A stretch of 64,000 bases of DNA from Siderastrea siderea (taxonomy: Eukaryota > Cnidaria > Anthozoa > Scleractinia > Rhizangiidae). The notes under the pieces were generated by a model. That model ran no database searches. It was not told where the DNA came from and was given only the letters and a program-made list of their open reading frames with translations. Positions 29,324 through 52,862 of this stretch are shown one piece after another; position 1 is the first letter of the stretch; each line of letters begins with the position of its first letter. Location of the stretch: assembly GCA_964030785.1 (NCBI GenBank), contig OZ034967.1, positions 53,349,533 through 53,413,532 of the forward strand, read 5' to 3'. The position numbers and the translations under genes are program-made.

Positions 29324-29515
29324 TAGTCCATGGGCCAAGGCCCCCAAAATAGGGTATTTCTTACCACTCAGAGGGACAAATGCTATCATTGATTTTTGGA
29401 AACCTCTATTCCTCTAGTTTATTTTAGTATGTGATAGCAATGCTAAAAGAGTAGCTTAAGTGCCTAAATCACGTGATGAAATGACGTCACTGATGTGAAC
29501 AAAAAATGGCTATAT
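29324..29515. repeat. left terminal inverted repeat of the outer transposon
   Basis: Matches the reverse complement of about 52690-52862 in ordered blocks: TAGTCCATGGGCCA, GGCC, TTCTTACCAC, GAGGGACAAA, TATCATT, GATAGCAAT, GAGTAGCTT, AAAATGGC. The blocks are separated by diverged spacers of similar length. Confidence 0.8.
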
Positions 29516-29814
29516 TTCCCGGATTTTGGTCATCTTTCGACTATTTCATAAGTTGCTGTTGGTTTTAAGCTCACTATGCTTTGAAAAGATGGCATACAAG
29601 GTACCTAGATGATAGTTTAAGAGAAGACAAATAAATATAACGCTATTGTAACTCGGTTTCCATGGTAACGCGTCACAAACTGAACTAAGACAATGCAAGA
29701 GATATCAACGGCTAATTGGTCAATATGTTTTCTGAAATAAAATAACTTGCATTTCTCTCTGTAGTTAAGTTTCTGAAGGGATCGCATTTCATAAACATCA
29801 GATCAGGCTGTTTT

Positions 29815-29820
29815 TTTATT
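29815..29820 (-). promoter_or_regulatory. polyadenylation signal of the outer transposon gene
   Basis: TTTATT on the plus strand reads AATAAA on the minus strand, about 16 bp after the stop codon at 29836. This fits the end of the outer transposon's coding unit. Confidence 0.5.
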
Positions 29821-29835
29821 AACTCACTTGATCTC

Positions 29836-30084
29836 TTATTCGTCTTCATCTTCCTGGTCATCATCTGAGAAAGCATCGTCGGCTGCATCCTCCTCTCGTC
29901 GGTTTGTACAGTCCTGCAACCGGCATAAATCCGTGCACTTAAGGCCATTGGTAAGGCAGGTACAGCCTGGTAGCTTGCAGATTCTCGAACACTGACAAGA
30001 TAGCAACTCCAGAACGGCTTGGGGAGCTGGTTCACCACTCATCCAATCAATGGTAAGTTTGCCGTCCTCCAGACACCAGCCAGA
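29836..30084 (-). CDS. C-terminal exon-like fragment of the outer transposon protein: CXC-type cysteine-rich tail
   Basis: These 82 codons plus stop are the end of the outer transposon's protein, cut off from the rest by the Polinton. The reading frame continues from the segment ending at 47757 if the Polinton and one GCCAGA copy are removed. It holds a Cys-rich run beginning CQCSRICKLPGC with the pattern of tesmin/TSO1-like CXC domains, then an acidic tail (DDAFSDDDQEDEDE). CXC domains bind DNA in other proteins, so this could contact transposon ends; that is inference. With the Polinton in place the tail cannot be translated with the main body. Confidence 0.8.
   Translation of the reverse strand, partial: SGWCLEDGKLTIDWMSGEPAPQAVLELLSCQCSRICKLPGCTCLTNGLKCTDLCRLQDCTNRREEDAADDAFSDDDQEDEDE
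30079..30084. repeat. left 6-bp target site duplication of the Polinton (GCCAGA)
   Basis: GCCAGA at 30079-30084 matches GCCAGA at 47757-47762 exactly. A 6-bp duplication is the known signature of Polinton/Maverick integration. Confidence 0.95.
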
Positions 30085-30521
30085 AGTAGTTATATACTTG
30101 GGGGTACGAGCGCATTTTGAAAAATGCGCTCTTACCAATCCCAAGTATTAACTACTTTCCATCAGATGGAAATCTATATGTTGGTAGGAGCCGAGCAGGC
30201 TCGGGAAGTCGTCACTTTAGTGACGAGTGAGGCTCCTTGCGGCCTACTGTGGGTAGAGACGTAGTCTCGTAGGGCACAGTAGGCAACATGGTACCAGAGC
30301 ATTTTTACATATGATGGAAATTATTTTATGGAAATCTATATGTTTTTATTTCATGGGAAATCTATTTGGTATTATTTCATGGAAAAATCTATATGGTATT
30401 ATCTCATGGAAAATCTATTTGGTATTATCTCATGGGAAATCTATTTGGTATTATCTCATGGAAAATATATTTGGCATTATCTCATAGTTGGGAGTACGAG
30501 CGCAGTTTGCCATCGGATGAA
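30085..30521. repeat. left 437-bp terminal inverted repeat of the Polinton
   Basis: Starts AGTAGTTATATACTTGGGGG and matches the reverse complement of 47320-47756 almost base for base. It contains a hairpin GAGCGCATTTT/AAAATGCGCTC at about 30109-30132. A set of palindromes follows at 30187-30285, and five to six tandem units of about 26 bp (TCATGGRAAATCTATTTGGT-like) lie at 30328-30487. ORFs across the tandem units are spurious. Confidence 0.95.
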
Positions 30522-30582
30522 ATGGCACTTTCCCGATGAGTCATCAGATTGTCATGTAATATCAGATGAACTTGTATTTGAA

Positions 30583-30700
30583 GTAAAGTTTGTCAGTAAA
30601 GTTTGTCAGTAAAGTTTGTCAGTAAAGTTTGTCAGTAAAGTTTGTCAGTAAAGTTTGTCAGTAAAGTTTGTCAGTAAAGTTTGTCAGTAAAGTTTGTAGT
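30583..30700. repeat. 13-bp minisatellite, about nine units
   Basis: The unit GTAAAGTTTGTCA is repeated with almost no variation between the left TIR and the 3' end of the polymerase gene. It is unique to the left side of the element. Confidence 0.95.
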
Positions 30701-30758
30701 GAACAGAAAAGCAGAACTTGTATGGAGGCCAACACAGCTGTGGCGTGACGTCACATCT

Positions 30759-33700
30759 TCAGATTGCATAATGTCCGTAAGCGAAACTATTGATTCCATC
30801 GTTTGATATATATCTTTTGTCGTCAAAACAGCTGAGTGACACTTTATTAATTTCATAGCTTCCGAGTTGATGATTCATACTTCTGATTGTTTTCATGGTA
30901 TGATGTATTTGTTTGTTATTAATTAATACATTTTTATGATCTTCATGTTTGATATTGTTCTTTATTATGTTCTTCTTGATTCCTTTGGCTGTTTTTCCTA
31001 CTTTCTGGTTGTCTTTTATGTAACTATACATTTTTGATCGCAAACCTATGAATTCTATGATTGGTATTCCAGCTGCTTCATCTTTGAATTTACCGATTAC
31101 CTTTTTGTTTGTCTTATCGAAATAAAGTGAGTTTTCAGGATAGTCACTGTTGTCGAATAGATCTTTGTTATTCCAAAAGTCTTGGTAAACATCTTCAGCT
31201 TCAATCTCATATGTCAGACTGTCTGTGTCAGTGAAGAGCAGCTTGGCTTTGCTTCCATACTTTTCTTTTATGTAGTTATAATGAAAATCATACATTAATG
31301 TCTTGCTCATATCAAGAATACACATACCTACATATGCTGGCCTGTTTAGAGTTAACGTTTCTTTGATCTTATGTACTGCTACCAGATTTTCATTGAATAT
31401 CTTACTGCTTACATAAGTTGGTTTGGAAGTCATTTTCAATAATTTCTTTTCATCTGTTATGAGTCGAACATCAACACGCTTTCTTATGTTTTCCATCGTT
31501 TTTCCAAATACTGAATTATTCATTAGCTTGAAGAAATCTTTTTCGAATGAATTTTTTGCTTGAGTACGTTTTTGTGTATTGAAGTCAATATATTGTTTGA
31601 GCCATGGAGACTGGTTGAATTTTAACACTCGGTGAACTTTCTTTAATTTCAAGCCAAGATCAAGATACAACTGCAGATTTCTATAGTGTAGAACATATTT
31701 TTTTTTGTCACATAAAGTAGGGATCAGTTTGTGTACTAGTCCTGTTGATATTTTGAACTTTTTCTGTATGTTCTTACAATATTCAGACAACATATTATCA
31801 GTTACTTTCACTTTTTCTGACCCTAGAGGATAGTCATTATGAAGGGTATGTAACTCTTTGGGATATTCTAGATCAACTTCTAGTATCAATCCTTTATTGC
31901 TGTTTTCATTATACTGAGCTAAATTGATTTTATTAATCTGCTTTTCTGTCATCCATTTGAAACAACCAGTTGGTAGATATTGACTCATAGCCCAACCGTA
32001 TAAATTATTAGCATCAAGATACATAATGTATTTTGAGGGTGCATTCTTATCGTATTCTCTCATGTACTTGTTGTTCGCTTTACTATATCGATTCGCAATA
32101 TAAGATATACCACCACGCATGCCTTTTTCAATGAATTGAAACATGTCTATGTCTGTCATTAGTTCCAATTTAATATCAGTCATCTTCAACATTGCATCCC
32201 AACTCAAACCAGGTGATGTGAAGTAGTGACATGGGTCAAGTTTGTAATACTGAAGACAGGTCTTGCGGAAGTTTTCAAACACGTCGGCTAATAGAAGTAT
32301 ATCAGACTTCAGATATAGATTGTGGTATTCGCCCATCGTTTGTAATTGGAATGTATTCCATACTTTTTGAGCATGACAATAATCCTCATCTGTTATATGC
32401 TCATTATTCAATATGCTGTAAAATTCTTCTTTAGTCGGTAATTCTGTTTTATTGAATTTCTCAAAACTGTCCATGTAATCGTACGGATAAATACCTTTTC
32501 GCGTCATAAGATTGAATTTTTCTTTTTGGAATCTTTTGTTTGTATATTTCAAAGCTTCTGCTGGTAAGTTGCTCACTAATTTATCCAAACTTGAACTCAT
32601 GAATTGGAAACTGTCGATGAATGTCAGATGGTTGCCAAGCATGAAAGCCATATACTTTTCCATGTTATTTGGAATAGCATTGATATTCATTTGTTTCTCC
32701 TCTCCATTCTTATTTTTGTATGTATTATTCTTGACAATAGCTCCAATTTCTTGCATAATGAAATGACTGTCATAACCTCTCAAATTATGGAATATAACAG
32801 GAATTTTTATTTCTTTTGGATTTATTCTGAGTTTCAGATTGCATTCTTGGTGAGCTGAGCCTCTGTATTTACCAGTAATATGGCAATGATCTCTGACTCG
32901 AATGTCTTTTTCAGTATATTTTTTATCGCAGATGTGACATTCTTTTGCTTTTTCGAATTCCTGTTCATTCTCTTTTGTCATTCTCAATGGTTTATCGAAA
33001 TGTTTTTTCATTACTTTTTTGCAGTATTTCACTTCTTCTAACATATTTTCCATGAATTTGTAAACAGCCTTTTCACCCCTATATAGTTGTATTTTTTTTG
33101 TATATTTGTCATCATAACAACAAACCAATTTATAAGCATATCCACAATCTGTATGTCTTTGGTATGCTTCGGTGTATGATTTGTTACCCTCTTGTTGGCA
33201 TCCTTGTACCTTTTCAGTTATAGCCTCAAAATCGGCATATATGACAAATGGTACAGGTTGCTGTTTATGGAAGTTGTTGAATTTCAGTATGTTATTGTTT
33301 TTGTCAGGCATTTTTATTGCTTGTTTACCATTCACTTGTATGCAAATATCTTTGTGATTGTTTAATACCCTGTCAGAACTGAAACATTGAAGACAGTACA
33401 TACAAAAGTGTTTCCTCTCTTTGTGTTTTGTTTGATTATACATGAACTTGTTGAAATCCTTTATTAGAACATAATGTTTGTTTTCATCTTTATTTACCAG
33501 AAGTAGTTCCATATGATCTTCATACTTTTCTTTGGAAACATAGATGGGATATGGCTGTTTTTCTTCATATCCGAATACATTTATATTGATACTGTTTTGC
33601 TTCTCAATTTTGTTGTAATGTTTGACATTGACTGGAAATTCAATACCTGAGTAATCTAACTTTTCAACGTATGGTTTATCGACTTTTTTAATCCTTTGAG

Positions 33701-34553
33701 GATATTTTTCTTGCAGATTTATATGTCTGATATGGCACCATCTGAAACATTCATTATCTTCATTTTTCATGTTAATTAGTCCCTTAGCACTATTTCGCAG
33801 TTCAGAAGGCAGTTGGATATATGAGGATCCTTTCATGGGCTTATATTTAACAATGTTTAGGTAATGGCTATCAACAGATTGGATAGTCCATCCTGAACCT
33901 TCTGATATCCATTGAGCTATCTTATTCAGTATCTCTTGTTTAGACATTTTTAATGCTTCATTGATTTCCATTTGGTTGATTATTGTTTGGGGTGTGCTAT
34001 TGAAATATGCTGTCTTTTCAACTATTTCATTACCTGAATTTTTTTCGAATGTGACTTTCAATGTTTCAACGTATTTCAAGCCTTTCATTTCATTCAACAA
34101 AGTTATTACACGTTGTTCTATTGCCTTTCTCGTGTTTTGCATTTGAGCTAAGGGGTCTTTATTGTTTTTGATGTTGATTTCATAAGACTTAGTGTAACCT
34201 TTTAAGGCTTTGTCTGTTTGTTCTATTTTGGTTCTTGGTGTTGGTATTGGTCTCCTTGGTTTGTATGTTCTTGACGCTGGAACTGGTTTATAATTATCCC
34301 TGAATTCTGGAGGTGGAAGAATGATGTTTTCTTCATATTCTTTAGCCATCTGTTTGACACTCTTGCGAGGTGTTGGTACAGGTGGTCTTGGTTTATAAGT
34401 CCTTTGTGTTGGAACTGGTTTGGTATCATCTGCTATGATGATTTCAGGCTTCCTTTTCTTTTGATTCAGAAGCAATTTGATAAGTTTTGATTTGCTAAGT
34501 TTCTTCAAACTAGCTTTGTTCATTTCTATATAATTATATTCTTTTATTTCCAT
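30759..34553 (-). CDS. protein-primed type B DNA polymerase of the Polinton
   Basis: A 1264-residue family B polymerase that replicates linear element DNA from a protein primer. Visible marks: proofreading motifs YADFEAI (Asp441/Glu443), FHNLRGYDSHF (588-598) and the YLKSD...AD motif (Asp751); polymerase motif A YLDANNLYGWAM (845-856), motif B NNSVFGKTMEN (1012-1022) and motif C FTDTDS (1107-1112). Two extra modules lie in front of or inside the exonuclease: a C2HC finger (Cys384, Cys387, His400, Cys404) and an HNH/endonuclease VII-like Cys/His cluster (Cys539, Cys542, His556-His558, His568, Cys571). The N-terminus carries a duplicated proline-rich stretch (about 45-64 and 89-108). Length is normal for Polintons and the frame is intact. 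The ATG directly follows an AT-rich leader. Confidence 0.97.
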   Translation of the reverse strand: MEIKEYNYIEMNKASLKKLSKSKLIKLLLNQKKRKPEIIIADDTKPVPTQRTYKPRPPVPTPRKSVKQMAKEYEENIILPPPEFRDNYKPVPASRTYKPRRPIPTPRTKIEQTDKALKGYTKSYEINIKNNKDPLAQMQNTRKAIEQRVITLLNEMKGLKYVETLKVTFEKNSGNEIVEKTAYFNSTPQTIINQMEINEALKMSKQEILNKIAQWISEGSGWTIQSVDSHYLNIVKYKPMKGSSYIQLPSELRNSAKGLINMKNEDNECFRWCHIRHINLQEKYPQRIKKVDKPYVEKLDYSGIEFPVNVKHYNKIEKQNSININVFGYEEKQPYPIYVSKEKYEDHMELLLVNKDENKHYVLIKDFNKFMYNQTKHKERKHFCMYCLQCFSSDRVLNNHKDICIQVNGKQAIKMPDKNNNILKFNNFHKQQPVPFVIYADFEAITEKVQGCQQEGNKSYTEAYQRHTDCGYAYKLVCCYDDKYTKKIQLYRGEKAVYKFMENMLEEVKYCKKVMKKHFDKPLRMTKENEQEFEKAKECHICDKKYTEKDIRVRDHCHITGKYRGSAHQECNLKLRINPKEIKIPVIFHNLRGYDSHFIMQEIGAIVKNNTYKNKNGEEKQMNINAIPNNMEKYMAFMLGNHLTFIDSFQFMSSSLDKLVSNLPAEALKYTNKRFQKEKFNLMTRKGIYPYDYMDSFEKFNKTELPTKEEFYSILNNEHITDEDYCHAQKVWNTFQLQTMGEYHNLYLKSDILLLADVFENFRKTCLQYYKLDPCHYFTSPGLSWDAMLKMTDIKLELMTDIDMFQFIEKGMRGGISYIANRYSKANNKYMREYDKNAPSKYIMYLDANNLYGWAMSQYLPTGCFKWMTEKQINKINLAQYNENSNKGLILEVDLEYPKELHTLHNDYPLGSEKVKVTDNMLSEYCKNIQKKFKISTGLVHKLIPTLCDKKKYVLHYRNLQLYLDLGLKLKKVHRVLKFNQSPWLKQYIDFNTQKRTQAKNSFEKDFFKLMNNSVFGKTMENIRKRVDVRLITDEKKLLKMTSKPTYVSSKIFNENLVAVHKIKETLTLNRPAYVGMCILDMSKTLMYDFHYNYIKEKYGSKAKLLFTDTDSLTYEIEAEDVYQDFWNNKDLFDNSDYPENSLYFDKTNKKVIGKFKDEAAGIPIIEFIGLRSKMYSYIKDNQKVGKTAKGIKKNIIKNNIKHEDHKNVLINNKQIHHTMKTIRSMNHQLGSYEINKVSLSCFDDKRYISNDGINSFAYGHYAI

Positions 34554-34659
34554 ATACTATATTATTGATATTCTTTTAAATAACTTTCATTGCGCGTTTT
34601 AAATGGTCGAGAATTCAAATGATCCACATATGGATCCTTTGAACTATAGTTGATTTTAT

Positions 34660-34986
34660 TTATTGGTGTTCATGTAAGAACTTTGTATGATTGCTCAATG
34701 TTTCCGATGACTTGAATTTTCTGGAACATTTTTTGCATTTTATTCTCACACCCTGGAAATAAAGTATGATTTCTTTAATGATTTCATCATAATCGTTGCT
34801 GACTAATATTTTATAATTGTTGTTTTCATACCCTTGGAGCATCATCTTCTGTTCTTCTGAAAGCTTACCATTACCAGTTGGTGTTTTAAATTCGATTGCA
34901 AAAGCTGTGTACTTCAAATGCATATTTCCAATGAATAGATCACAAGCTCCCTTTTGATAACCCATGTTGTATGATTTTATTCTCAT
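34660..34986 (-). CDS. VRR-NUC/PD-(D/E)XK nuclease part with C-terminal C2H2-like finger (frame broken from BRO-N part)
   Basis: 108 residues from the first ATG, but the open frame continues upstream without ATG to about 35033. There it meets the last codons of the BRO-N ORF in another frame. GACDLFI followed by FAIEFKTP is the D...ExK core of VRR-NUC nucleases, and a C2H2-like finger (CKKCSRKF...H...H) ends the protein. I infer that the two ORFs were once one BRO-N/VRR-NUC gene, now separated by a one-base frame change near 35022-35035. The role in the element is unknown; a DNA-processing enzyme is plausible. Confidence 0.7.
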   Translation of the reverse strand: MRIKSYNMGYQKGACDLFIGNMHLKYTAFAIEFKTPTGNGKLSEEQKMMLQGYENNNYKILVSNDYDEIIKEIILYFQGVRIKCKKCSRKFKSSETLSNHTKFLHEHQ

Positions 34987-35021
34987 GTTACCATTAATTT
35001 GGTTTTCACCTAATGTTGGGA

Positions 35022-35555
35022 TTAGGATTGCTTTAGGAAGTTGACTACCTTTTTATGTAAATCATATTCTGTGTTGATATTGAATGTCAGCATTTTGTAT
35101 GGCCTGTTGTTGAATTCATACTTACCGGTTTTTCTGATTGATGGTAAAACCTTTTTTGTTACCCAACGTTTGAATTCTTTCGCTTTATCCATTTTGGATC
35201 TCAATATTAGGCTGTATAGTCCGGATTCATTTATATAAATAGTGTTTCCGGTGTTCCATGTTAAAGGTAACGATTCGTTACCCCTGGATTTGAGCCTCTT
35301 AAGTGAACATTTATCTTCAGAATCAACATGTTTGAAAATCGTGTTTCCGGTGTTCCCAGTCAGGGGGGACGAATCGTCCCCCCTGGATTTGAGCCTCTTA
35401 AGTGAACATTTATCTTCAGAATCAACATGTTTGAAAATTGCTTTCTTGGTATCTTCATATCCCAAAATGTCGGCAACAGTTTTACCACGGAACCATATGT
35501 CATCATCCTTTTTGATAATATTCAGTTTTTTTCCTTCATAAGTGAAAATTTCCAT
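35022..35555 (-). CDS. BRO-N domain protein with internal tandem duplication
   Basis: 177 residues. The N-terminus (FTYEGKKLNIIKKDDDIWFRG, then a VADILGY segment) and INESGLYSLILRSK...FKRWVTKKVLPSIRKTG match the BRO N-terminal DNA-binding domain common in insect and large DNA viruses. A segment of about 34 residues (from IFKHVDSEDKC to NTGNTI) occurs twice in a row; the DNA duplication covers about 102 bp at 35235-35440. The C-terminal residues are the beginning of a nuclease domain that continues in a different frame in the next ORF downstream. The ATG follows AATAGATACAT. Confidence 0.85.
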   Translation of the reverse strand: MEIFTYEGKKLNIIKKDDDIWFRGKTVADILGYEDTKKAIFKHVDSEDKCSLKRLKSRGDDSSPLTGNTGNTIFKHVDSEDKCSLKRLKSRGNESLPLTWNTGNTIYINESGLYSLILRSKMDKAKEFKRWVTKKVLPSIRKTGKYEFNNRPYKMLTFNINTEYDLHKKVVNFLKQS

Positions 35556-35699
35556 ATGTATCTATTAATGCTATATATTATTTTCTGTTTAAATCAGATA
35601 GCCAGAAACAATTATATTTTTGGCTACCAAAAGCAAATAAACAGTATATACTGTATCAATCGATATAATATATGTTAGATAATATTTGCTTAAATCATT

Positions 35700-36635
35700 T
35701 TATATATCCTTCAAGTCCTTGAACGGTATCCAACTGTTGAATTCATCACTATACCCCTTCCACTTAACCAAAGCTTGCTTCTTTTTATAATCTCTCCGAA
35801 TGACTTTATCGATTCTGAATACCTCTTGTGTAGCTTTAAGCAATTCGGGTTCATAGAAACTCCCTTGAATGTCTTCATCTCTGAGATCCTTCAGTCTGTA
35901 AGTGACAGGAACAGTGGATTGGATTTCATCAACTGTAAAAACTTCCTCAGACCAATTTGGTGTATAGCCCTTATCAAACACATTTCGTTTATACTTACTT
36001 ATTCTGACCTTATCACCAACTTTAAATTTAGGTTTCTGTTTTGATGTTTCCATATCACCGTATAGATTAAAGTAAACAGTCCCTTCATTCTTCTTTTTAC
36101 TGGCTTCTGTTGGCGTCATCTTTGTGCTTGAATGTCTGGTGTTGTTATACTGTTTCACTAATTTGGGTAGCATGTCAAGATACTGTGTATTACCTTGAAC
36201 AGTAAACTGCTTCCACATTTTGGACTTGATTGTTCTGTTCCATCGTTCGCATACGCTACTTTTCTCCTCATTCTCAGTTGAGTACAAGGTTATTTTATTC
36301 TTATCAAGTAGTTCCTTAACATGTTTGTTGTAATACTCCTTGCCTTTGTCTGTCCAAAGATATTGTGGTTTACGTCCCTCTTTGAATATTTTTTTAAAAG
36401 CATTCATAACGGTTTCACCCTTTTTATCTTTTAATGGGACGATCCAACCGTATTTAGAGAATACATCTAAAACCATAAGAAGATATCTGTAGCCAGCGTT
36501 CCATCGACTGAATTTTTGCATCTCAACGATATCTGAACACCATGTCTCGTCAATATGGTTTACAATTACCCGCCGCCGGGTGAAGTTACGCTTTATCGGT
36601 TTATGAAGCTCATCAGCTAATTTTTCTTGCCAGTT
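35700..36635 (-). CDS. retroviral-type integrase with chromodomain (start codon not evident)
   Basis: This is the DDE integrase that inserts the Polinton. The first ATG is at 36521 and gives 273 residues, but clear integrase sequence (LHKPIKRNF, HIDETW, CSDIVE) continues in frame for about 38 codons further upstream with no ATG. The first catalytic Asp (in CSDIVE, about 36531-36533) lies in that upstream part, so a product from 36521 would lack it. The second Asp is in WTDKGKEY (Asp58 from the ATG) and the Glu in CERWNRTIK (Glu92). A chromodomain (VFRIDKVIRR...ALVKWKGYSDEFNSWIPF) ends the protein. The upstream part overlaps the end of the PLA2-like gene by about 19 bp. The start may be lost or non-standard. 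Confidence 0.9.
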   Translation of the reverse strand, partial: NWQEKLADELHKPIKRNFTRRRVIVNHIDETWCSDIVEMQKFSRWNAGYRYLLMVLDVFSKYGWIVPLKDKKGETVMNAFKKIFKEGRKPQYLWTDKGKEYYNKHVKELLDKNKITLYSTENEEKSSVCERWNRTIKSKMWKQFTVQGNTQYLDMLPKLVKQYNNTRHSSTKMTPTEASKKKNEGTVYFNLYGDMETSKQKPKFKVGDKVRISKYKRNVFDKGYTPNWSEEVFTVDEIQSTVPVTYRLKDLRDEDIQGSFYEPELLKATQEVFRIDKVIRRDYKKKQALVKWKGYSDEFNSWIPFKDLKDI

Positions 36636-37249
36636 TGCTTCACTCGACGGCCTTTCACGTTTTTTGTCTTCCTTTGTTTGACACCAAGACCCAGTTTCTG
36701 CTTTGTATTAATCAAGAACCGAGCAGTTTGTCCCCATTTTGGCATTTCCCCATAAGGTATTTCATCTAATGACTTAACCATTTTCTTGTCACATTCACCC
36801 TTGTTTTTCCCCATGTCATAACAAATATCATGATAAGCTGCTATTTCATCCACTTTATTGAGGGGTTTCACATTCCACTTGGTGACCTTGCCAGTATTTT
36901 TATCGTACTGAAGCTGCTCTTCCAGCGGATTATACGGACCTAAATATTTATACTTTCCAGGAGTCCATCCAGCTTTTGGTTTTGGTATTTTCCCAATTAG
37001 TTTATGTATATCAACACCAGCACCATCCAAATCCTTTCTGTCGGTTTTATACTTTCTATTTGGTCTGATTTTGGTTGATAATTGATCAAGAGCTTGACTT
37101 CCGACATTTTGAAACATTGGATTCAACTTATCCAGAGCATAATCGATAGCCTTTTTCTGCAGTTTTGGGTTTCTCAAGGCTTCTGATCCATAATATCTTC
37201 CCATTTCAACTGCCTTTTTGCCGAGCCAAGGAATACCGTGGTGAATCAA
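36617..37249 (-). CDS. PLA2-like (parvovirus VP1-type) virion protein
   Basis: About 210 residues in the open frame. The calcium-loop-like YKYLGPYNPLE and the catalytic-type HD in DEIAAYHDICYD have the arrangement of the phospholipase A2 domain in parvovirus VP1, where it breaches endosomal membranes during entry. I infer a similar virion role here. The frame has no ATG near its 5' end: the first is at 37204, and conserved-looking sequence continues upstream to about 37310, overlapping the zinc-ribbon ORF in another frame. It is therefore either a frameshifted fusion with that ORF or uses an unusual start. The C-terminus is basic and overlaps the integrase 5' region. Confidence 0.75.
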   Translation of the reverse strand: MIHHGIPWLGKKAVEMGRYYGSEALRNPKLQKKAIDYALDKLNPMFQNVGSQALDQLSTKIRPNRKYKTDRKDLDGAGVDIHKLIGKIPKPKAGWTPGKYKYLGPYNPLEEQLQYDKNTGKVTKWNVKPLNKVDEIAAYHDICYDMGKNKGECDKKMVKSLDEIPYGEMPKWGQTARFLINTKQKLGLGVKQRKTKNVKGRRVKQTGKKN

Positions 37250-37278
37250 TAAATCAGTACCAGTTGATGCTACTGTAT

Positions 37279-37464
37279 CTAGTATGCCCGCCCCTTTCGA
37301 CGGGCTAACCCGTTTCCCGCCTGTTTGACGAATTTCGTCTTAGTGATTCCGCATTCAGAGCATTTGCATTTAAGCATAAGCCTCCCATTCTTAGCCTTTT
37401 CATATCTTTCACTCCCAGGTACACATTCTGTGACCTTCTTTTGTTTCACGCAATAAGATTTCAT
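37279..37464 (-). CDS. small basic zinc-ribbon protein (DUF5679-like)
   Basis: 61 residues. YCVKQKK...TEC and CKCSECGITKTKF give a two-knuckle zinc ribbon like DUF5679 proteins found in several DNA viruses and Polintons. The basic end (GNGLARRKGRAY) may bind DNA. The ATG follows CTAATCATATTATAT, the element's usual start motif. The last codons overlap the upstream open frame of the PLA2-like gene, which suggests the two may originally have been one protein. Confidence 0.75.
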   Translation of the reverse strand: MKSYCVKQKKVTECVPGSERYEKAKNGRLMLKCKCSECGITKTKFVKQAGNGLARRKGRAY

Positions 37465-37475
37465 ATATAATATGA

Positions 37476-37950
37476 TTAGATATTTTTGAAATACCGTGCT
37501 AGAAACCTCTCATTCTTCATTGTATCATATATATCAAATACCTGAAGCAGATCAAAATATGATTTACCCTTATTCATCTCATTCAAAAAGTACAGACAGA
37601 AATATCCACATATTGTCGTCAGTAAATTTTGTATTTGATTGTTCTGATGAAGCAATGTTAAGTTCTTCTTTTTAGCGTGATTGACCATTTCTTGGAAGGG
37701 GGGCAAACCAAAACTATCAAAGTAATTGATGACGTTATCTTTGACATATGTTGACACCCAATGGCTACCGCTCATATAACTCGGTTCAAGATTGTAAATG
37801 AATAGAGCCTGTCTATGATTGTGAGGAACATTTTCATCTCGAGACAGAACATCTTTGATTGGGATATTCAGATATTTACACCATTTTATTAAATCATAAT
37901 TGCTTAATGGGACATTCTTATGGAATTTCGGTTTTACAATAGAATGTTTA
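37476..37950 (-). CDS. adenain-like cysteine protease (start codon not evident)
   Basis: The maturation protease of adenovirus and Polinton virions. From the first ATG (37775) there are 99 residues starting just before the catalytic His (GSHWV). VINYFDSFGLPP supplies the acidic residue, and ICGYFCLYFLNEM holds the catalytic Cys region. The frame stays open upstream for about 58 further codons with protease-like sequence (WCKYLNIPIKDVLSRDENVPH) but no ATG, and reaches the end of the minor virion protein gene. Length from 37950 agrees better with adenain homologues than the 99-residue product. The likely cause is a frame change at the A-run near 38012-38023, or an unrecognised start. Confidence 0.88.
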
Positions 37951-38781: not shown

Positions 38782-38855
38782 ATAATATATGTTAGATAAA
38801 TTCTCTTTTAAAAAACATATTCATTTAAATTTTCATCGATGTAACGCTTATTTAT

Positions 38856-40145: not shown

Positions 40146-40176
40146 TTATATGAGTAGTTTAGATAAAATTCACTTT

Positions 40177-43093: not shown

Positions 43094-43104
43094 ACTAATA
43101 TTAT

Positions 43105-45210
43105 ATGAGTTATACAAACGGTATCCTTAATCATGATGATTCTCAAGGACTAGGTAAGATAGGTTCAAGAGGTTTACCTGGTATTGGATTTAAATTAGAT
43201 TCAAATAATGATTATGATATGCAAAACAAAAAACTGGTTAATGTAAAACAGGGAACTAATAATAACGACGTTGTTACTAAACAATATATTGATTCTGAAA
43301 TAGCTAAGATTCTCATTATTGATGCATCTAAATTTGTCGCAATATCTGGTGATACGATGACTGGATCACTCGTTGTCCCAAAAGACAATTATCCAGTTCA
43401 TGGCGATCTCAACAAGGTTATAAGTTATGAATCACAAAGGGAGATATTCTTGTCAAAGAAGGAAGGAGGTCAAATGGAAGCAAATATTGATATAAATAAT
43501 AATACAATTTTCAATGTGAAAGACCCCACACAGGCAGATCCTGCAACAAATAAAAAATATGTCGATAACCAACTTGTGAAAAAATTGGATAAAAATGTTG
43601 ATATTGATATGACAAATAAATCAATTACTAATCTTAAATTACCATCAAATCAAAAAGACGCCACAAATGTAGAATTTGTTAATAAAAGAATTACTGAAAC
43701 ACAAAAAAATTATCTCAAACTTGATGGCACAACAAGTATGTCTGGAGACTTGAATTTAAATAACAATAAAATTGTTAACTTACAAACCGATTACAGAGAC
43801 TCGAAATCCGCAGCTAATGTTGATTTTGTGCAAGAGGAAATAAAAGATTTGAGAAATCTTGTCACTCAAAAAATTCGTGAATCTCATATCAATAACTCAG
43901 GTCAAAAAAGGGACGCCTTCAGATACTTAATGGAAGACGATGATGAATCTTCGAGTGAAAAAAATATCAATGTTTTGGGTATTGTTGATTTTCCCAATTC
44001 TCCACATCAAATTAATAAAAAAGCTTACCAACTTCAACTCTTGTTTGAAAAAAGCTCACCCAACAAGTACCAGTCACGCCTCGGTTTTAACTTATATAAA
44101 CTTCCAGTCGGGTATTACACAATGGTCGTTGAATGGTTTCCGCCAGAAATGAATGAGATAACTGTAACAGCTCAAGGAAAAACGATTTCAATTTCTGATG
44201 AAACAACCAAAACATTCAAGAATTACACCAAAACAGTTATCCATTTACACAGATGGGGTAGCTCACCTCCACAATTCCTTTATCTTGATTTGCATGGTAC
44301 AGTCAGTAATCCATCATTTTTAACAATTGGTAATCTAATTGTTTATGGCGTTAAAGAAACAATTTCAAACGTTGACCCAAGTATCTATGACACCGCTTTT
44401 GTTATTAAAAATGGCAAAATGGCGATGGAAACGGATCTTGATTTAAATAATCATAAAATAATCAATTTAAACGATCCATTAAATGAAGGTGATGCCTGCA
44501 ATAAACGTTCTTTGAATATTGTGGAAACAAAAATAAATAACATAAGTTATTATACCAAGGATCATATATATAGAACTATCTTCGGTAATGATTTTTATGA
44601 TCTAGAAGAAACAAGCACGTATAATCTCGTAAATGGTGTATCTGGTGTTGTTATTAGTGGTCTACGACCTAATTTCATCCTCGGCACAAATCGTCTTATA
44701 AATTTTTATAGTCCAAAATATGGTTTACAATTAAATATAAAGACACATATTCGAACAGTTGATATATTCAATCAAAATACAAGTTTTACATTCTTCATGT
44801 CTTTTTGGCACGATACAACCAAAACATGTGAGATCAGTTGGTCAAACACTCTTGGCTTTCATGTAAAATTCTATCCTCGATATCAGATCACCGATAACAA
44901 ATTAATAATTGATGCTCGCTCCAAAATTTATCAAAAAACATTCACAACCGACTTCCAAAACAAGCAAATTTTTGTATGGATATGCTATAACGGCTCTAAT
45001 AATTTACATAAATTCAGTTTGAGTAATTACTCATCTCATGTCCAAGAAACATTCGCTGCACCTGTTAGCTTTCAAAGCAAGCAACTTGAAATCGACTTTG
45101 ACGGATATGTTAAAAAAGTAGGTTTGATTGATAAATTCATTGATATAGGCAGCCTAGAATTTCATAAAATTTTATTAGAGGAAAAGAGAAATGGTGCTTA
45201 TCTAGAATAA
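43105..45210 (+). CDS. fibre-like protein with tail-fibre-type repeats
   Basis: 701 residues. At least five diverged repeats of about 35-45 residues carry a D-x-NN-K-I-x-N-L ... P ... DA-x-NK-x-V pattern (for example at 37-70, 128-160, 165-200, 214-250 and 442-475). This design is common in trimeric phage and virus fibres. A beta-rich insert of about 140 residues lies between repeats four and five. A distinct globular domain (about 500-701) ends the protein and might bind the host surface. A short GLPGIG stretch is present near the N-terminus. It probably forms a spike; homology to a named family is not certain. Confidence 0.8.
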   Translation: MSYTNGILNHDDSQGLGKIGSRGLPGIGFKLDSNNDYDMQNKKLVNVKQGTNNNDVVTKQYIDSEIAKILIIDASKFVAISGDTMTGSLVVPKDNYPVHGDLNKVISYESQREIFLSKKEGGQMEANIDINNNTIFNVKDPTQADPATNKKYVDNQLVKKLDKNVDIDMTNKSITNLKLPSNQKDATNVEFVNKRITETQKNYLKLDGTTSMSGDLNLNNNKIVNLQTDYRDSKSAANVDFVQEEIKDLRNLVTQKIRESHINNSGQKRDAFRYLMEDDDESSSEKNINVLGIVDFPNSPHQINKKAYQLQLLFEKSSPNKYQSRLGFNLYKLPVGYYTMVVEWFPPEMNEITVTAQGKTISISDETTKTFKNYTKTVIHLHRWGSSPPQFLYLDLHGTVSNPSFLTIGNLIVYGVKETISNVDPSIYDTAFVIKNGKMAMETDLDLNNHKIINLNDPLNEGDACNKRSLNIVETKINNISYYTKDHIYRTIFGNDFYDLEETSTYNLVNGVSGVVISGLRPNFILGTNRLINFYSPKYGLQLNIKTHIRTVDIFNQNTSFTFFMSFWHDTTKTCEISWSNTLGFHVKFYPRYQITDNKLIIDARSKIYQKTFTTDFQNKQIFVWICYNGSNNLHKFSLSNYSSHVQETFAAPVSFQSKQLEIDFDGYVKKVGLIDKFIDIGSLEFHKILLEEKRNGAYLE

Positions 45211-45229
45211 TAATATAAACAAAGAATAT

Positions 45230-46102
45230 ATGTCAAGTTTCACAGACTATGAAAAATATCATTTACATAATTACGTATACAAAAAAGGAACGTTATCAGA
45301 AACTTTATTCTGGGAAAGATATCAACTAGCTGATTGTCTATATAAGATAGACCGAGGTAGTCCATCTGAGGTTACTTTTGATAATTCAACTAGAGCAGTA
45401 CCATATCTTTTCGATCAATCTCTTAAAGAAAATGATGCCAACCAAGCAACACAAACAACTAAACCCATTTTATGCACAAAAGCTGAAAAAAATAATTATC
45501 GATATCATTTAAAATTTGATGGTAGCAAACGAATGTTATCAAACATAAATTTAAATCCTGCTTCTGGGCAAGCTGATATAGTTAATGTTTTCATCGTTTA
45601 TAGATTGAATTCATACACAGGATCTTATGCTGTTCGTAATGGACTTTTCGGACACGATAATGGAGGTTATGACAAATTTGTTGCATTCTCACCAACTGGT
45701 CATTTACTTGTAAGTGGAACAACAAATCAGCATATTGTCATTGGACTAAGTGCTTTCAATGGTAAGAATGCTACAGCACCATACCAATCAAAAGCTAATG
45801 CGAGTGAACTGAATAAATGGATCTGTTTATCAATTCACTGGGATGTACCTGGTGGTAACAACGCTTCTGAAACATGGTGTAACGGTAAAAAATTAGCTAA
45901 TTTCACAGCAAGAACATCACCTGGAAGTACTAACATGACATTTGGAGATTTGAACCCCTCTGGTGTTGCAGGTTTGAAGGGTGATATAGCTTTTTTTTGT
46001 CTTTACAAAGGTAAAAATCTTACTGAATCAAATATCAAACTTCACCATTACGTACTTTGCAAATGGTATGCTGTGGATCATGATCCGAATTCATTCAATT
46101 AA
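45230..46102 (+). CDS. lectin-like (LamG/concanavalin-like) protein, putative spike component
   Basis: 290 residues. After an about 90-residue N-terminal part, a beta-rich region (YHLKFDGSKRML...VFIVYRL...FVAFSP...LNKWICLSIHWD...GDIAFFCLYKGKNLTESNIK) has the rhythm of LamG/ConA-like jelly rolls. The fibre gene just upstream shows similar terminal segments, so the two may act together in attachment. That is inference. The frame is intact and the ATG follows AAAGAATAT. Confidence 0.75.
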   Translation: MSSFTDYEKYHLHNYVYKKGTLSETLFWERYQLADCLYKIDRGSPSEVTFDNSTRAVPYLFDQSLKENDANQATQTTKPILCTKAEKNNYRYHLKFDGSKRMLSNINLNPASGQADIVNVFIVYRLNSYTGSYAVRNGLFGHDNGGYDKFVAFSPTGHLLVSGTTNQHIVIGLSAFNGKNATAPYQSKANASELNKWICLSIHWDVPGGNNASETWCNGKKLANFTARTSPGSTNMTFGDLNPSGVAGLKGDIAFFCLYKGKNLTESNIKLHHYVLCKWYAVDHDPNSFN

Positions 46103-46116
46103 TATAATAATATAAT

Positions 46117-46239
46117 ATGAGAACAACAACTTTAATCAATGAAATTATTGATAGTATCGAGAAATTGGTTCAAAACATCAAAAAATTATACCATAGTATT
46201 AAATTATCATTCATGAAGAAAAAAAATATAACCATATAA
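46117..46239 (+). CDS. small basic amphipathic-helix ORF (40 residues)
   Basis: A 40-codon ORF preceded by the AT-rich start context ATATAATAATATAAT and lying tightly between two plus-strand genes (14 bp after one, 5 bp before the next). The product would be one long amphipathic helix with a Lys-rich end (KLSFMKKKN). I do not recognise it. Position and start motif are the only support. Confidence 0.4.
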   Translation: MRTTTLINEIIDSIEKLVQNIKKLYHSIKLSFMKKKNITI

Positions 46240-46244
46240 TATAT

Positions 46245-46733
46245 ATGGATAGTCGTAAGAATATATTCAATTGGAACCATGTTTCAGAAAAATTAACGGA
46301 AGATCAAATATCTGAGTTGAAAGCATTGTACAAATTCTATCATAAAAAATATTGGCTTGCCAAAATGACTTTTAAATATTTCAAAAAAGCAGAACTTGCA
46401 TGTAATATCGGATCTGTTTTATTGGTAGTAACAGGGACAGTAGTTGGTGGTGTAACGCTAAACCCTATTCCTCTCGGAACAATATCTGGTGCTGGTCTCT
46501 TGCTTAAAACATATTCAGAGGCTAAAAACTACAAAAGGAAGATTGAGATGTCTAAATTCGCATACACTTCGTACGAAAAGGTTTTAATAGATTTGCGGTC
46601 TTTTATGAGAGGACTGGAGTATAATGACAAAGAATTTCTTGATTATGTCAAAGTTCTTGATGATATAATCATTGATATGTGCCCGTTAACTGACAAATTT
46701 GAAAAGAAATATAATAAGGTGTTCATCCAATAA
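46245..46733 (+). CDS. two-transmembrane protein, SLATT-like
   Basis: 162 residues. A helical N-terminus is followed by two hydrophobic segments (about 54-70 and 74-89, Gly-rich with NPIPLG between) and a long helical C-terminal part. This helix-2TM-helix layout resembles SLATT domains, which form membrane effectors in bacterial conflict systems and recur in mobile elements. The resemblance is by architecture only. It could equally be a virion membrane protein. The ATG directly follows ATAATATAT. Confidence 0.7.
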   Translation: MDSRKNIFNWNHVSEKLTEDQISELKALYKFYHKKYWLAKMTFKYFKKAELACNIGSVLLVVTGTVVGGVTLNPIPLGTISGAGLLLKTYSEAKNYKRKIEMSKFAYTSYEKVLIDLRSFMRGLEYNDKEFLDYVKVLDDIIIDMCPLTDKFEKKYNKVFIQ

Positions 46734-46793
46734 TAGATTTTATTTTATCACCGATTAGAGACATAATACTAGCCCAATATTTATTGTAAAAAG

Positions 46794-47282
46794 CTAATGT
46801 TTTTTCGATTTACTGATTGGAATATTTTTGTAAGGTATTCCCATCATCTTGAATATCATTCTCATAATAAAATTAACGCTAATCATTCTTTTCCTTGTAC
46901 CATTTACTTGATCAATAATATTACCTATCTCTGCAAAAACTCGTTCAATTTTACATTTTTGATGGTGTGATATTTCTATATTATATTTTTCTTCGATTTT
47001 CAGTAACAGGTTGTTAATGTGGTACTCTCGATGGTAAACAGATTTTCTTATAAATCTATGTCTATTCTCATAGAAATCAACATATTCTTTTGCATAATTA
47101 TATCCTTGTACAACACCACAACTTCGACAAACTTGCATTCCGTTTTCGTTTATAACATCCTGATTATCACAGCATTCATCATCTTTCGGTTTTTTATTAG
47201 AATCTTCTATTTTTTCGTCACAAAAAGGACAAACAACTTCTGATTCTTTCAGGTAATCGTGAATATCTGAGTTACAATACAT
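46794..47282 (-). CDS. zinc-ribbon transcription-factor-like protein (TFIIB/VLTF3-like)
   Basis: 162 residues. Cys18-x2-Cys21 is one knuckle. Cys37/Cys38 together with Cys52-x2-Cys55 (VCRSCGVVQG) form a TFIIB-like zinc ribbon. The second half (KSVYHREYHINNLLLKI...) recalls the conserved YkR..H...L segment of VLTF3, a late transcription factor of large DNA viruses. A regulator of the element's late genes is plausible given the shared start motif seen before them. It is the only minus-strand gene right of the ATPase and stands next to the right TIR. Confidence 0.72.
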   Translation of the reverse strand: MYCNSDIHDYLKESEVVCPFCDEKIEDSNKKPKDDECCDNQDVINENGMQVCRSCGVVQGYNYAKEYVDFYENRHRFIRKSVYHREYHINNLLLKIEEKYNIEISHHQKCKIERVFAEIGNIIDQVNGTRKRMISVNFIMRMIFKMMGIPYKNIPISKSKKH

Positions 47283-47319
47283 TCTATACTATTATATGAT
47301 ATTATATTTTTAAGTAATA

Positions 47320-47756
47320 TTCATCCGATGGCAAACTGCGCTCGTACTCCCAACTATGAGATAATGCCAAATATATTTTCCATGAGATAATACCAAATAG
47401 ATTTCCCATGAGATAATACCAAATAGATTTTCCATGAGATAATACCATATAGATTTTTCCATGAAATAATACCAAATAGATTTCCCATGAAATAAAAACA
47501 TATAGATTTCCATAAAATAATTTCCATCATATGTAAAAATGCTCTGGTACCATGTTGCCTACTGTGCCCTACGAGACTACGTCTCTACCCACAGTAGGCC
47601 GCAAGGAGCCTCACTCGTCACTAAAGTGACGACTTCCCGAGCCTGCTCGGCTCCTACCAACATATAGATTTCCATCTGATGGAAAGTAGTTAATACTTGG
47701 GATTGGTAAGAGCGCATTTTTCAAAATGCGCTCGTACCCCCAAGTATATAACTACT
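47320..47756. repeat. right 437-bp terminal inverted repeat of the Polinton
   Basis: Reverse complement of 30085-30521, of equal length and with hardly any differences, including the hairpins and the tandem 26-bp units. It ends CAAGTATATAACTACT before the GCCAGA duplication. Confidence 0.95.
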
Positions 47757-47762
47757 GCCAGA
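47757..47762. repeat. right 6-bp target site duplication of the Polinton (GCCAGA)
   Basis: Exact copy of 30079-30084. On the minus strand it encodes the Ser-Gly pair of the interrupted transposon protein. Confidence 0.95.
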
Positions 47763-50700
47763 CCCAACAGGTGAAGGTACTTGAGGGCAGCTCTGCAGAC
47801 TTCTTTTCCAGATCGCTGCTTGGTAGTTTGCCCGAAGTGAGTGCTTTCGCAGACAATCAGCACAGGGTGGAAGTTGGTTCGAGTCAAGTTTGCCTTTCTT
47901 TACACAGAAGAGCCGATAGCGTAGTTCATTCACATCATTGGTTCCTGGATTTGAACTGTAAAGCTTACACGTGAATTCCTGAAGCCTTTCGAACAACTCA
48001 CTGGAGACCTCCCACTGCATACCAAGCTGCTTGAAAAGGTCTTGGAAAGATTTGTGTCGCTTAATGAGTTTTAACGCGGTTATCTTCCCCTTTCCAGCAA
48101 ACGCACTAACGCTGTCACACCCTGTATAAGCATGCAAACCAATAAGACATTTGCATACCTCTGGTCCATGCAGCTGAACCGCCATAGAGATGTCTATGTA
48201 TCTTGTTCGGGTCTGTGTGCCACATTTCATGTATAATGATGCTGGAATAAAGCTCTTAAAAGTTAGGCAGAGCACGAAGACATCTGTATCTTCTGACGAT
48301 ATCAAGATCGTCTTATAACCAGACCTTGCAGCATCGGCAGCGTGCAATAGTATTCTTGTGTCGGCCTCTTCTTGCGTTGATCGGAGATCTTTCCTTGTAA
48401 TGACACTTCCTTGGGAGACTTGGTAGCATTGGTCTTCAGTCGTGACAAAAAGTGTCTTTCCGGAAAGTTTAGCTACATATCTGTCTTTCTGCCACTGCTC
48501 TGCAATAAATGCAATGAAATGCTTCTTGTTCGTGGGGTTTGACAAAAATGTTCGCCATTGCAGCAGTTTATGTTCTGGTCGGATATTACGGAATTCATTT
48601 CCGGTCTGATCAGAACCTCTCTTTTCTCTCTCTGCGTTTTTAATGGAGTTCTCTAAGTACACGTCAAACACAACATCGATCCGGTTACTGTTAGCTCCCT
48701 CATGCAAGGCCATACTTATCAGTGAATCAGTAACTTCTGAAAACGTCTTTTGATCTCCTTTCAGCCTCTGAACTAGTGCCATTCCATCAATGATACATGC
48801 CGATGGTTGTGGAATGATTTCCGCTGCTGGCACATCCTTCTGTAGCTCTTTTGCAAGGGAACTCTTTGAGGTTTTCTTGAGGGAACCATCCGCAGAAGCC
48901 AACGCCCAGGGTAGCGGCCCAAGCGGGTGAGACAGCACCTCCTTCATCTTCAGTTGTCTGGTCTCTGCAATAATAATCATCTGAGCAAATAGTGCTCGGT
49001 CAGCCTTGAGGATAACTTCCTTAGCAGTTCCGCGGCTAACTTTCATTTTCTTGTTTAGATCACTGAACGTCTTAAGCTGTAATTTAGTCATTTTTTCATG
49101 AAACTTCACCTTCGTTGGCTCTGACTCTAGCCTTTGCTCTCTAAATGTTCTGTAGGCCTGTTCTCCAATTTCTTTAGCCTTCAGAAGGTCGTGCTCGATT
49201 TCAGGGGTGGCGACTTTGCCGGTGGATAAACAAACAAGGTCTTGCTGTTCACTCTGGTATGGACTGATCCAGATTTCGAAGGTTGATAGCAAGGATTTAA
49301 CATCTCCTTCGTCCCTTGTGATCCTGCTCTGTTGAAGGTCGTTGTGCGAAGAGCTCGAGCTGTTCAGGTGGAGGATGTCTTTCAACTGCCTCATAAATAT
49401 GCTTCGATACTCAGCTGTTAAGTAATACTTGCTGAAGGCTCAGGGCTTTAGACTAAACCCCTTGGTCCCCCCTGGCGTCTGCGTGTCTTTGTTTACCGTT
49501 TCTTCGCAAGTCTGGTCGACTGGTATTCTGCCGAAGGTGTTAACCTCGCCAATCTGAACTGCGAATCCGCCAGATTTGAAATACTCCAATATATTTGGGT
49601 GGTCGTCCTCCAGGTGAGACATTTCTGAAACGTACGCAGACAGGTATCTCGCGTAATTGAGGTTGTCATAGGCGAAACACCAGGGTATCATTTGTCTAAT
49701 ACAAGACAAATGAAGTTCCCAGTTCCCTTCCCTGGTTGCTCTCAACAGGCCCAAAAGAATTTCTACAATGTCAATGTACGACATCCAGAATGCAGAAAGC
49801 TTGCCATTTTCATGTCGAAGACAGTCCATGTACTCCTCAAAAAGTTGGAAAACCTCTGTGGATGACGGACTGGACAGTTTCTCTTGGAAAACTTCTTCAC
49901 AGACATTGTCATACAGCGTTTGAAGATCACCAAAGAAGTTGTCAACCATAGTCTTCTTATGTGCGCGATTCTCTCCGATCCACGTCTGAAATCCCGACCA
50001 AATTAATCTCATGAGAGCTTCATACATGAGCTTATGGAATCTCACGGCACGATTATATCTATGGCCATCCAAAACCCCAGAAACAGATCCCTCTGCAATC
50101 ACACCTGTCTCTACCCAAATGTCCCTCAACCCGGCATCCTGAAATCTCTTTCCTATGATTCCTAGCAGAGTGCAAATGGTGTGGAACACTCCCATCCTTA
50201 AAATCAAGGTGCTGAACTTCTCCTTATGCTTCCATTTGATTTCTGTGGCTTTTGCATACAACGCCTGGTCAAAAACGACTACTATGCTCTGAAGTTTAAG
50301 ACTGTTCTTTATCTTTAGTGACTGGTTCAGGACTTCGTAGACGGTTGACAAATCAGTGGCAGGCGCGTCGATAGTTGGTAGATATCCTATGCTGTCTTTG
50401 GAGACTTCCACCTCACTGCGTACAGCAATGTTAAACCCGGTCCAACCGCTGACTTTCTGCTTCTCAGCGGCATGAAGCCGCACTAGTATCCAAAGCAAGT
50501 TCTTTTTCCGTGAATTTGCTTCTATTTCGGATGACGTGACTTCTACAAATGTTCTCGGGGGAGGACCACAGCGCTCTCCTGCATTATAGACAGGAAGGTC
50601 GGTGTCATTTAGCACTTCTACACTTCTTTGCTTGGTTTTTGCTACGTTGGGTGCAACTTCATCTGGAGGAAGGTGTGGACCATAATGTCTGGCTTGTATG

Positions 50701-52295
50701 GCAATGCCGTTCACCCTATGAGAAGTACCTTTGCCAGATAGGGTTTCTTCCAATCGGTCAATGTTGTCCCAGGCGAGCGTCGTGCTAATGTAGGGCTGAA
50801 TATTGTCAGGTAAAGGAACAGCATTTTCTGGCGTCGATGCCAGTTTTTGTAGACACAAGGCGGTGTTCAATTCTTCAATCTGTGAGAGGGTTTTCCCGTG
50901 TCCACAGCGATTTATCATTTGAATGAGCTCGACGTTATTGGTGAGTGATTTAACAGCGTAGGGCAATAGTATATGCTTAGGTGGCTTCTGCTGTCCCCCG
51001 CTTACAGTGAAAATCATATCCTGTCCAATAGAGTTCATAAGACGTTGTACTCTTGGTTGACAAGACTCTTGTGAATTCGCTGTGTTTCCAGTTAAAAGAG
51101 TACATAAAAACGCTCTGACTTCATCTGGAAATTTAATCGCACTTTCAGTAAGCTCAGACGGTTGTGGAGGCCATGACATTTTGTGCTCGTTAGAGCGTAT
51201 TGCTTTTCGAATGTCCAGGGCAACTCTTTGAATATTCTCAATTTTTGAAAGTTCACTTGTGCACTGTTGCTCTTGTGATAGCTGTGCTACTTCCTTGGCC
51301 AGCTGAAGTTTTGAGAGATTCTCTGGAATAATGAACAGCCTGTTATTATCTAGCAAATCTTCAAAGTGCAGTAATCCTCCGAATTCTGATTCAAGCTTTC
51401 TACGAAAATGTGTTTTGGTTGACTCCTTAATTTCTTTTGCTCCCAAGTCCTGCATAAACGACAGCAGAGTATTTGTTAAGTCGGTCATTTTCACTAATTT
51501 AGGCTTCTCCAGTATACTAGACCTAACATGGTCAAAAAGCATTTCATACGCCTTAGACTCGAGGCGTGCGTACTCTTCATCTGACGATGCTGCAGTTGTT
51601 TCATTAGAGGTTCCGCTGTGTAAGTGTGGCCGAGTGTAATCCCTGTAACAAGATTTGTGATAGCAGGCCTCAGCCGCGACTAATTCTCGTGATACTATAG
51701 CTAAGATCCTGCTATCATTATTAACTATAGCGATTCTCCTTACAGTTTCATCAGCACGCAGTTCCGAACATTGAATCAATACCTCTCGACTTCTACTTCC
51801 TCTTGGGTATTTGCTATTCTTTCTGCAAAATATGCAAACGCGTTCGTACGTTGTGCTCGTGCTGGGTGCACCTCGGATAGAAAATCTCCTGTCTACGGCA
51901 TCAGAGTCACTGGCATCGTCCTCGGTCTTCTTACACTCTTTAGAAATTTTATCCAAATCCCTTTTCAGAGTAAAAATGCTCCGACATTTTCTATGATACA
52001 AAACGTTGGGAATTTCACCATCCTTCAAAGTCTTAGAAACGTCCAGTAGTGGTTTGTGATCCCGAATTTCGGCAGCTCGCAAAAGTGTTGCCCACGATTC
52101 AGTGTTTTGCGGGGATGTCAGCTCTCTAGAATTATCGTTGCTACAGTGTATAATACACCTTCTTTCTCCACATGGACGTTTCCTTAGGCCCCCAAGATCA
52201 TCGTTTTCTGTTCTTTTTTCCCCTCCTAATCGTTTGAACATAGAATGACCAAAGCGTCTTTCAGTTAATATTTTCGAACTACTCAAGTTGAACAT
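47757..52295 (-). CDS. outer transposon protein, main part: Cys/His modules plus FEN1/XPG-like nuclease region; in-frame TGA at 49440-49442
   Basis: The ATG at 52295 opens a 1513-codon frame broken only by TGA at 49440-49442. The first 951 residues have two Cys/His modules (Cys47, Cys51, His101, Cys104; Cys154-x2-Cys157 with His213-x2-Cys216) and a conserved-looking region near 670-770 (VVVFDQALYAKA, RMGVFHTI, GIIGKRFQDAGL). The part after the stop (numbered from Met at 49394) reads like a FEN1/XPG PIN-type nuclease: Asp203 in IIDGMAL, Asp244 in VVFDVY before SIK..ER, Glu343 and Asp345 in STQEEADTRILL, Asp369 and Asp371 in SSEDTDVFVL, and Asp427 in TGCDSVSAFAGKGK. The protein continues at 30078 beyond the Polinton. 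No reverse transcriptase is present. I know similar proteins as multi-copy uncharacterised cnidarian ORFs but not with a name. It may be the transposition enzyme, or enzymes, of the TIR element. Confidence 0.8.
49440..49442 (-). other. in-frame TGA in the outer transposon ORF
   Basis: The codon after ...GFSLKP is TGA, and the same frame continues with AFSKYYLTAEYRSIF up to the next Met at 49394. Flanking sequence looks equally coding on both sides. This is either a nonsense change in a decaying copy or a readthrough point separating two products. Confidence 0.8.
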
Positions 52296-52689
52296 TCTAG
52301 AAGGTCTGTAAGTTTAGATGTTTTTCGTTGAAATTATCATCAAATGTGCTCTATTTTCCAAATAAAAAACTACTTAAAGCACTTATTGGTATATTTAACC
52401 AGAAAAAATGTTTATATTAAAGATCGGAAGGTTTTTAAACCCAATAAAACCGGAAAGCAAAAGTACGAACTTACCAGACGCATGAGCCGCCATCTTGGAT
52501 TTTCCCATGATTCCTAGCGATTTCCAAAGATAACTATTTGCTGAATTTTATATCTTAGATAAGCCATTTCGAAAACATGAGACCCCAAAAATAACAAGAG
52601 CAATGCCATGTATTTATTATTTAAGGAAAGGGTGCAAAGGAATATCGATAAACGAATTTAAATATATGATTTGTTTTAAGCCTCGTTCT

Positions 52690-52862
52690 CACGTTTGGGC
52701 GCCATTTTGGAAAAAAAAGCATTGAAAATTATACCTTAAAGCTACTCCTGTGCGATTGCTATCATTCAAATATTGAAACACCTTCGCCCAAGCTTTAAAA
52801 TGATACCACTCACAATTTGTCCCTCGAGGTGGTAAGAACTCAGTGGCCTGGCCCATGGACTA
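52690..52862. repeat. right terminal inverted repeat of the outer transposon
   Basis: Reverse complement begins TAGTCCATGGGCCA and follows the left end through TTCTTACCAC, GAGGGACAAA, GATAGCAAT and GAGTAGCTT. The about 400 bp between this repeat and the ATG at 52295 is non-coding and should contain the promoter. Confidence 0.8.

Follow-up and report, generated by a model that had tools for sequence, protein, structure and literature searches.

Structure of the Element

The DNA considered here is a 64,000-nucleotide stretch of the genome of the coral Siderastrea siderea (assembly GCA_964030785.1, contig OZ034967.1, positions 53,349,533 to 53,413,532; hereafter the window), which holds an Academ-like (AcademX-type) DNA transposon at 29324-52862, recognized by its ends and flanks, with its gene on the minus strand and a Polinton nested inside. 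The sequence TAGTCCATGGGCCA occurs without mismatch at 29324-29337 (+) and at 52849-52862 (-), and these two element ends are its only sites in the 64 kb at up to three mismatches; shuffles predict 2.58 such sites, so that the count alone is ordinary, and it is the exactness and the position at the ends that are unusual. Beyond these 14 exact bp, the left (29324-29545, +) and right (52641-52862, -) terminal inverted repeats (TIRs) continue in ordered matching blocks, each over ~220 bp. Local alignment of both 260-bp ends scores 88 over ~220 bp, whereas 500 shuffles reach at most 62 and 2000 real 260-mer pairs taken from the two window flanks at most 64; a chance pair of inverted repeats was rejected on these controls. 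TTA stands directly outside both ends (29321-29323 and 52863-52865) as the putative target-site duplication, a 3-bp match in a single copy that is weak evidence taken alone.

The gene is interrupted twice. Its transposase half forms a 951-aa open reading frame (ORF; 49440-52295, -) that closes at an in-frame stop, past which lies a 557-aa ORF (47721-49394, -) whose final 12 codons are Polinton DNA, leaving 546 aa of the nuclease half ahead of the insertion (47757-49394, -). The Polinton itself (30085-47756, 17.67 kb) sits inside the transposon gene without being part of the transposon and is bounded on either side by GCCAGA (30079-30084 and 47757-47762), its 6-bp duplication. Beyond it, the last 82 codons of the gene continue in one open frame (29836-30084, -), which encodes the 8-cysteine (CXC) tail (29908-29997) and closes with acidic residues. 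Subtracting the Polinton and one GCCAGA duplicate from the 23,539 bp of the element gives an ancestral length of 5,861 bp. A preliminary description of this DNA had proposed a mobile element with TIRs matching over about 190 bp, TTA flanks and an ancestral length of 5.86 kb, which is borne out, with the TIRs matching over ~220 bp; the single long ORF that it also reported is in fact split in this copy by the stop and the insertion.

In P0121, a 1593-aa database protein representing a cluster of 138 sequences, all three parts of the gene share one frame, and it matches the 951-aa query over its full length at 100% identity (a rounded value; a few residues differ); hence copies of the gene without the two breaks exist. 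The window element is a copy broken by later insertion: with a stop within the frame and the Polinton in place, it cannot make the whole protein.

No empty site was found in the window, and only two repeats from the flanks of the element recur elsewhere. A 257-bp dispersed repeat at 28987-29243, which stops 80 bp left of the transposon, has a 93% identical copy in the opposite orientation at 58416-58670, and GAGTTCGAGTT-type simple repeats flank the transposon on both sides in opposite orientation (28591-28666 and 53599-53673).

Predicted Domains of the Protein

The N-terminal half is predicted to be an RNase H-fold DDE transposase. It begins with two conserved Cys/His modules (C47-H50-H101-C104 and C154-C157-H213-C216; 51648-52157, -), which probably bind zinc, followed by a winged-helix-like segment (aa 235-327; 51315-51593, -) and by the predicted catalytic core (49482-50783, -) with D510, D676 and E931, the last two separated by a helical insertion. 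The triad is conserved in aligned relatives, and the neighboring E932 is not. The best listed structural match of the core is the hAT transposase Hermes, a modest one with an rmsd above 8 angstroms; when the 951-aa model was run in plain Foldseek, nothing matched at E<=0.001, and the 50 matches listed include no transposase. A Pfam family of unknown function, DUF6589 (PF20231), scores above cut-off on the transposase core of two relatives (P0237 and P0249), but is absent from the reported matches of the window ORFs and of P0121, P0169 and P0181, and a literature search on DUF6589 found nothing.

The C-terminal half is predicted to adopt the XPG/FEN1/Exo1 nuclease fold (aa 176-542 of the 557-aa ORF; 47769-48869, -); this predicted fold and the conserved acidic residues both match the XPG/Rad2 superfamily. 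The acidic series D203, D240, D244, E342, E343, D345, D369, D371 and D427 (numbered in the same ORF) is 96-100% conserved in 53 aligned sequences, and presumably corresponds to the known catalytic residues of FEN1-type enzymes. Sequence searches yielded little: profile searches of solved structures found no meaningful match for the nuclease, phmmer with the 557-aa ORF returned nothing meaningful, Pfam gave the two window ORFs only sub-threshold matches, and NCBIfam gave no match for three proteins. The Tesmin/TSO1 family TCR/CXC (PF03638, cut-off 23.5) is likewise below threshold in P0121 (11.4 bits) and P0169 (12.0 bits), despite the Tesmin/TSO1-like CXC name that some relatives carry in UniRef. 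A literature search for Tesmin/TSO1 together with transposons found nothing, and in viral contigs 13 stretches fitted a pattern, none of which was confirmed.

The FEN1-like acidic series, the Cys/His modules and the cysteine tail, all noted in the preliminary description, are upheld by conservation and fold prediction. The structure-based comparison of both halves that it had suggested yields an XPG/FEN1-type fold for the C-terminal and an RNase H fold for the N-terminal half; the DDE domain of the latter, left unnamed there, can now be given a predicted topology.

Relatives and Joint Inheritance

Homologues are numerous, with at least 447 of 7993 scored candidates matching the nuclease half (best 120 listed) and at least 97 of 7995 matching the transposase half, both at E<=0.001. 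Most matches are unnamed by species; those that are named come from lancelets, corals, anemones, a sea spider, crustaceans, a beetle, a snail and fishes, mainly under protein names such as "uncharacterized", "hypothetical" or "unnamed", and some as "Tesmin/TSO1-like CXC". Residues 1-400 of P0217, a distant relative, which cover transposase sequence only, served as a further query and found a second lineage (at least 276 of 5809 candidates, 120 listed). From 42 of these 120 listed proteins and 44 homologues of the transposase half, each of at least 1450 aa, a set of 86 full-length proteins was assembled, shorter proteins having been removed ahead of the motif counts.

In these 86 proteins, which span both lineages, the nuclease has been inherited along with the transposase. 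Transposase and nuclease trees both separate the two lineages with a support of 1.0, and they correlate with r of 0.96 overall and of 0.87 and 0.90 within the lineages. Supported splits of the transposase tree recur in the nuclease tree in 35 of 44 cases (33 of 40 in reverse), and the 1760 pairings of supported splits include 3 conflicts. The nuclease residues E1310, D1312, D1336, D1338 and D1394 are kept in 86/86. These are column-wise counts, used because regular expressions count too low for the second lineage (all three nuclease motifs in 6/42, compared with 38/44 in the window lineage). In the window lineage, the eight cysteines of the tail occur in 43-44 of 44 proteins by column and the tail in 43/44 by pattern search; the second lineage shows one stray aligned cysteine, and no tail was found among its 42 proteins.

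The P0217 group is a second lineage of the transposase-nuclease protein that lacks the cysteine tail, and some of its members match DUF6589. One of them, P0231, is filed under the genome of a bacterial symbiont, which is probably contamination from the host.

Classification of the Element

We place the element, with high confidence, in the AcademX branch of the Academ superfamily and take it for one genomic copy, in an animal, of an autonomous DNA transposon. The assignment is made by features: TIRs bound the coding unit, the duplication is 3 bp (in one copy), and a DDE domain and an XPG-type nuclease are both predicted, joined in a single protein as in the one 1593-aa ORF of P0121. The Academ superfamily is reportedly due to Kapitonov and Jurka (in 2010) and the AcademX branch to Kojima (in 2020), who is said to have described the AcademX nuclease as XPG, in one protein with the transposase. 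To our knowledge, AcademX is the only group in which a TIR transposon with 3-4-bp duplications encodes its DDE transposase and XPG-type nuclease as a single protein, and on this combination the element is judged to be of a known kind.

In the portions available, the literature describes AcademX by transposase plus nuclease and duplications of 3 or 4 bp (PMC10045372), counts 17 DDE/D superfamilies, Academ among them, and gives bivalve Academ elements a mean curated length of 5565 bp (PMC10294476), and lists Academ in Repbase (PMC9587614; PMC4455052; PMC5753468). The view of the preliminary description that the element fits no familiar superfamily is therefore not sustained; its parts are real, and the combination of transposase and nuclease is already known. 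A literature search pairing Academ with XPG found no relevant paper.

An undescribed superfamily, resembling Academ solely in its XPG-fold nuclease, appears very unlikely. It would be in keeping with the lack of any curated family naming the window protein, with a cysteine tail nearly universal in one lineage and missing from the other, and with a comparison to Academ made by description. Against it, duplication length, size and architecture fit Academ and AcademX as published (PMC10045372 and PMC10294476, as far as available), and the architecture is common to the second lineage, so that both look like one superfamily.

Still less probable is a host gene, such as a domesticated nuclease, lying between chance inverted repeats. 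The wide occurrence of the protein in animals, under mainly uninformative names, would suit such a gene, but the inverted repeats beat all controls and have TTA directly at their ends. Several diverged entries also occur per species (at least eight in Actinostola, some of them maybe pieces of one gene), and these copies, together with the conserved DDE triad, led us to reject a host gene. The longest contig measures 5.0-6.5 kb for 30 of the 44 full-length relatives, a weak point that fits collapsed repeats and also transcripts.

Kolobok and KDZ/Zisupton kinds of element have accessory nucleases or cysteine-rich domains, and Zisupton makes 8-bp duplications, unlike the 3 bp here. That the element is of such a kind, as its CXC-like tail and the varied accessory proteins of Kolobok lineages might suggest, has a negligible probability. 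It was rejected on duplication length and on nuclease type, the nucleases named for Kolobok in the available part of one source being PD-D/ExK, His-Me finger and DEDDh (PMC9587614) and the window nuclease having a predicted XPG fold.

A Possible Mechanism of Transposition

An uninterrupted copy of the AcademX-type element would encode one protein of ~1590 aa, with the N-terminal Cys/His modules, and perhaps a winged helix, as its probable means of binding the terminal repeats. The DDE/RNase H core (D510, D676, E931) would nick the ends and join them to the target, where a 3-bp staggered cut would give rise to the TTA duplication. DDE enzymes act on 3' ends, and the 5' strand of an element needs to be freed by other means; 5' flaps are the classic substrate of FEN1. 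The XPG-fold nuclease may act next, on the strand left by the DDE enzyme, its likeliest job being to trim old flanking DNA left as a 5' flap, or to cut the second strand, at the 5' ends of the element. This role is preferred because strand transfer of nicked ends would leave flanking DNA as 5' flaps; it is drawn from general knowledge and offered tentatively, as possible rather than probable, and the nuclease may have an accessory function such as gap repair. The order of the steps is as conjectural as each enzymatic step, with the ends, the duplication, the predicted folds, the conserved residues and the joint inheritance as the given points.

It is unlikely that the lineage with the 8-cysteine tail represents an unrecognized branch beside AcademX in which transposition requires the XPG-fold nuclease, as the enzyme that cleaves flaps or the second strand at the 5' ends, and which would be a eukaryotic analogue of the two-nuclease transposition of Tn7. 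The residue-level predictions (the DDE triad and the acidic set of the nuclease) bear on the role of a flap-type nuclease in such a transposon. The results further suggest that many animal proteins filed as "uncharacterized" or "Tesmin/TSO1-like CXC" are proteins of Academ-kind transposons.

The Nested Polinton and Other Features of the Window

The terminal repeats of the Polinton/Maverick element are 437 bp long and, because they are 100% identical, suggest a recent insertion. Its ORFs encode an integrase (rve and chromo), a Pox_A32-type packaging ATPase, a phospholipase A2-like protein, a Bro-N protein and others, among them what we take, by gene order, to be polymerase and capsid. An ORF at 46794-47282 (-) has sub-threshold matches to VLTF3, a poxvirus late transcription factor (22.0 bits, cut-off 25), and to the TFIIB zinc ribbon (16.8 bits, cut-off 29). 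In the ORF at 35022-35555 (-), Bro-N is matched in two stretches, and a 99-nt tandem duplication, 85% identical, lies at 35228-35425. The Polinton also contains a nearly perfect 13-bp tandem array (AGTAAAGTTTGTC) at 30582-30698 and a ~26-bp array within its terminal repeats.

Elsewhere in the window, two single-ORF genes of the TMEM121 family in opposite orientation (22758-23849, -; 26660-27706, +) are apparently an inverted duplication, an ORF for a rhodopsin-family receptor lies near the transposon, and three tRNA-Thr(GGT) genes occur within 0.8 kb (17808-17881, -; 18259-18332, +; 18506-18579, +). The TMEM121-family genes and the receptor ORF indicate animal DNA.

Comparison With Known Systems

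In the hAT transposase Hermes, as in the prediction for the window protein, the RNase H core is interrupted by a large helical insertion that separates the second D from the E. hAT elements make 8-bp target duplications, which differ from the 3-bp TTA found here, and we know of none that carry an XPG nuclease. FEN1, Exo1, XPG and XRN nucleases share with the window protein the predicted fold and the conserved acidic series in the same order, but the window nuclease is fused to a transposase and shows 9-19% identity among the structural matches listed.

Within the Academ superfamily, AcademH is described, in the portions of the sources available, by a helicase and 9-10-bp duplications (PMC10045372; helicase also PMC10799480). 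The window element belongs to the same superfamily by name and differs in having a nuclease and the 3-bp TTA; no helicase family was found for the two window ORFs or P0121 at E<=1. To AcademX no difference was established, and the window element agrees with it in its TIRs, its DDE-type transposase plus nuclease, its 3-bp duplication, a size of ~5.6-5.9 kb and its occurrence in animals.
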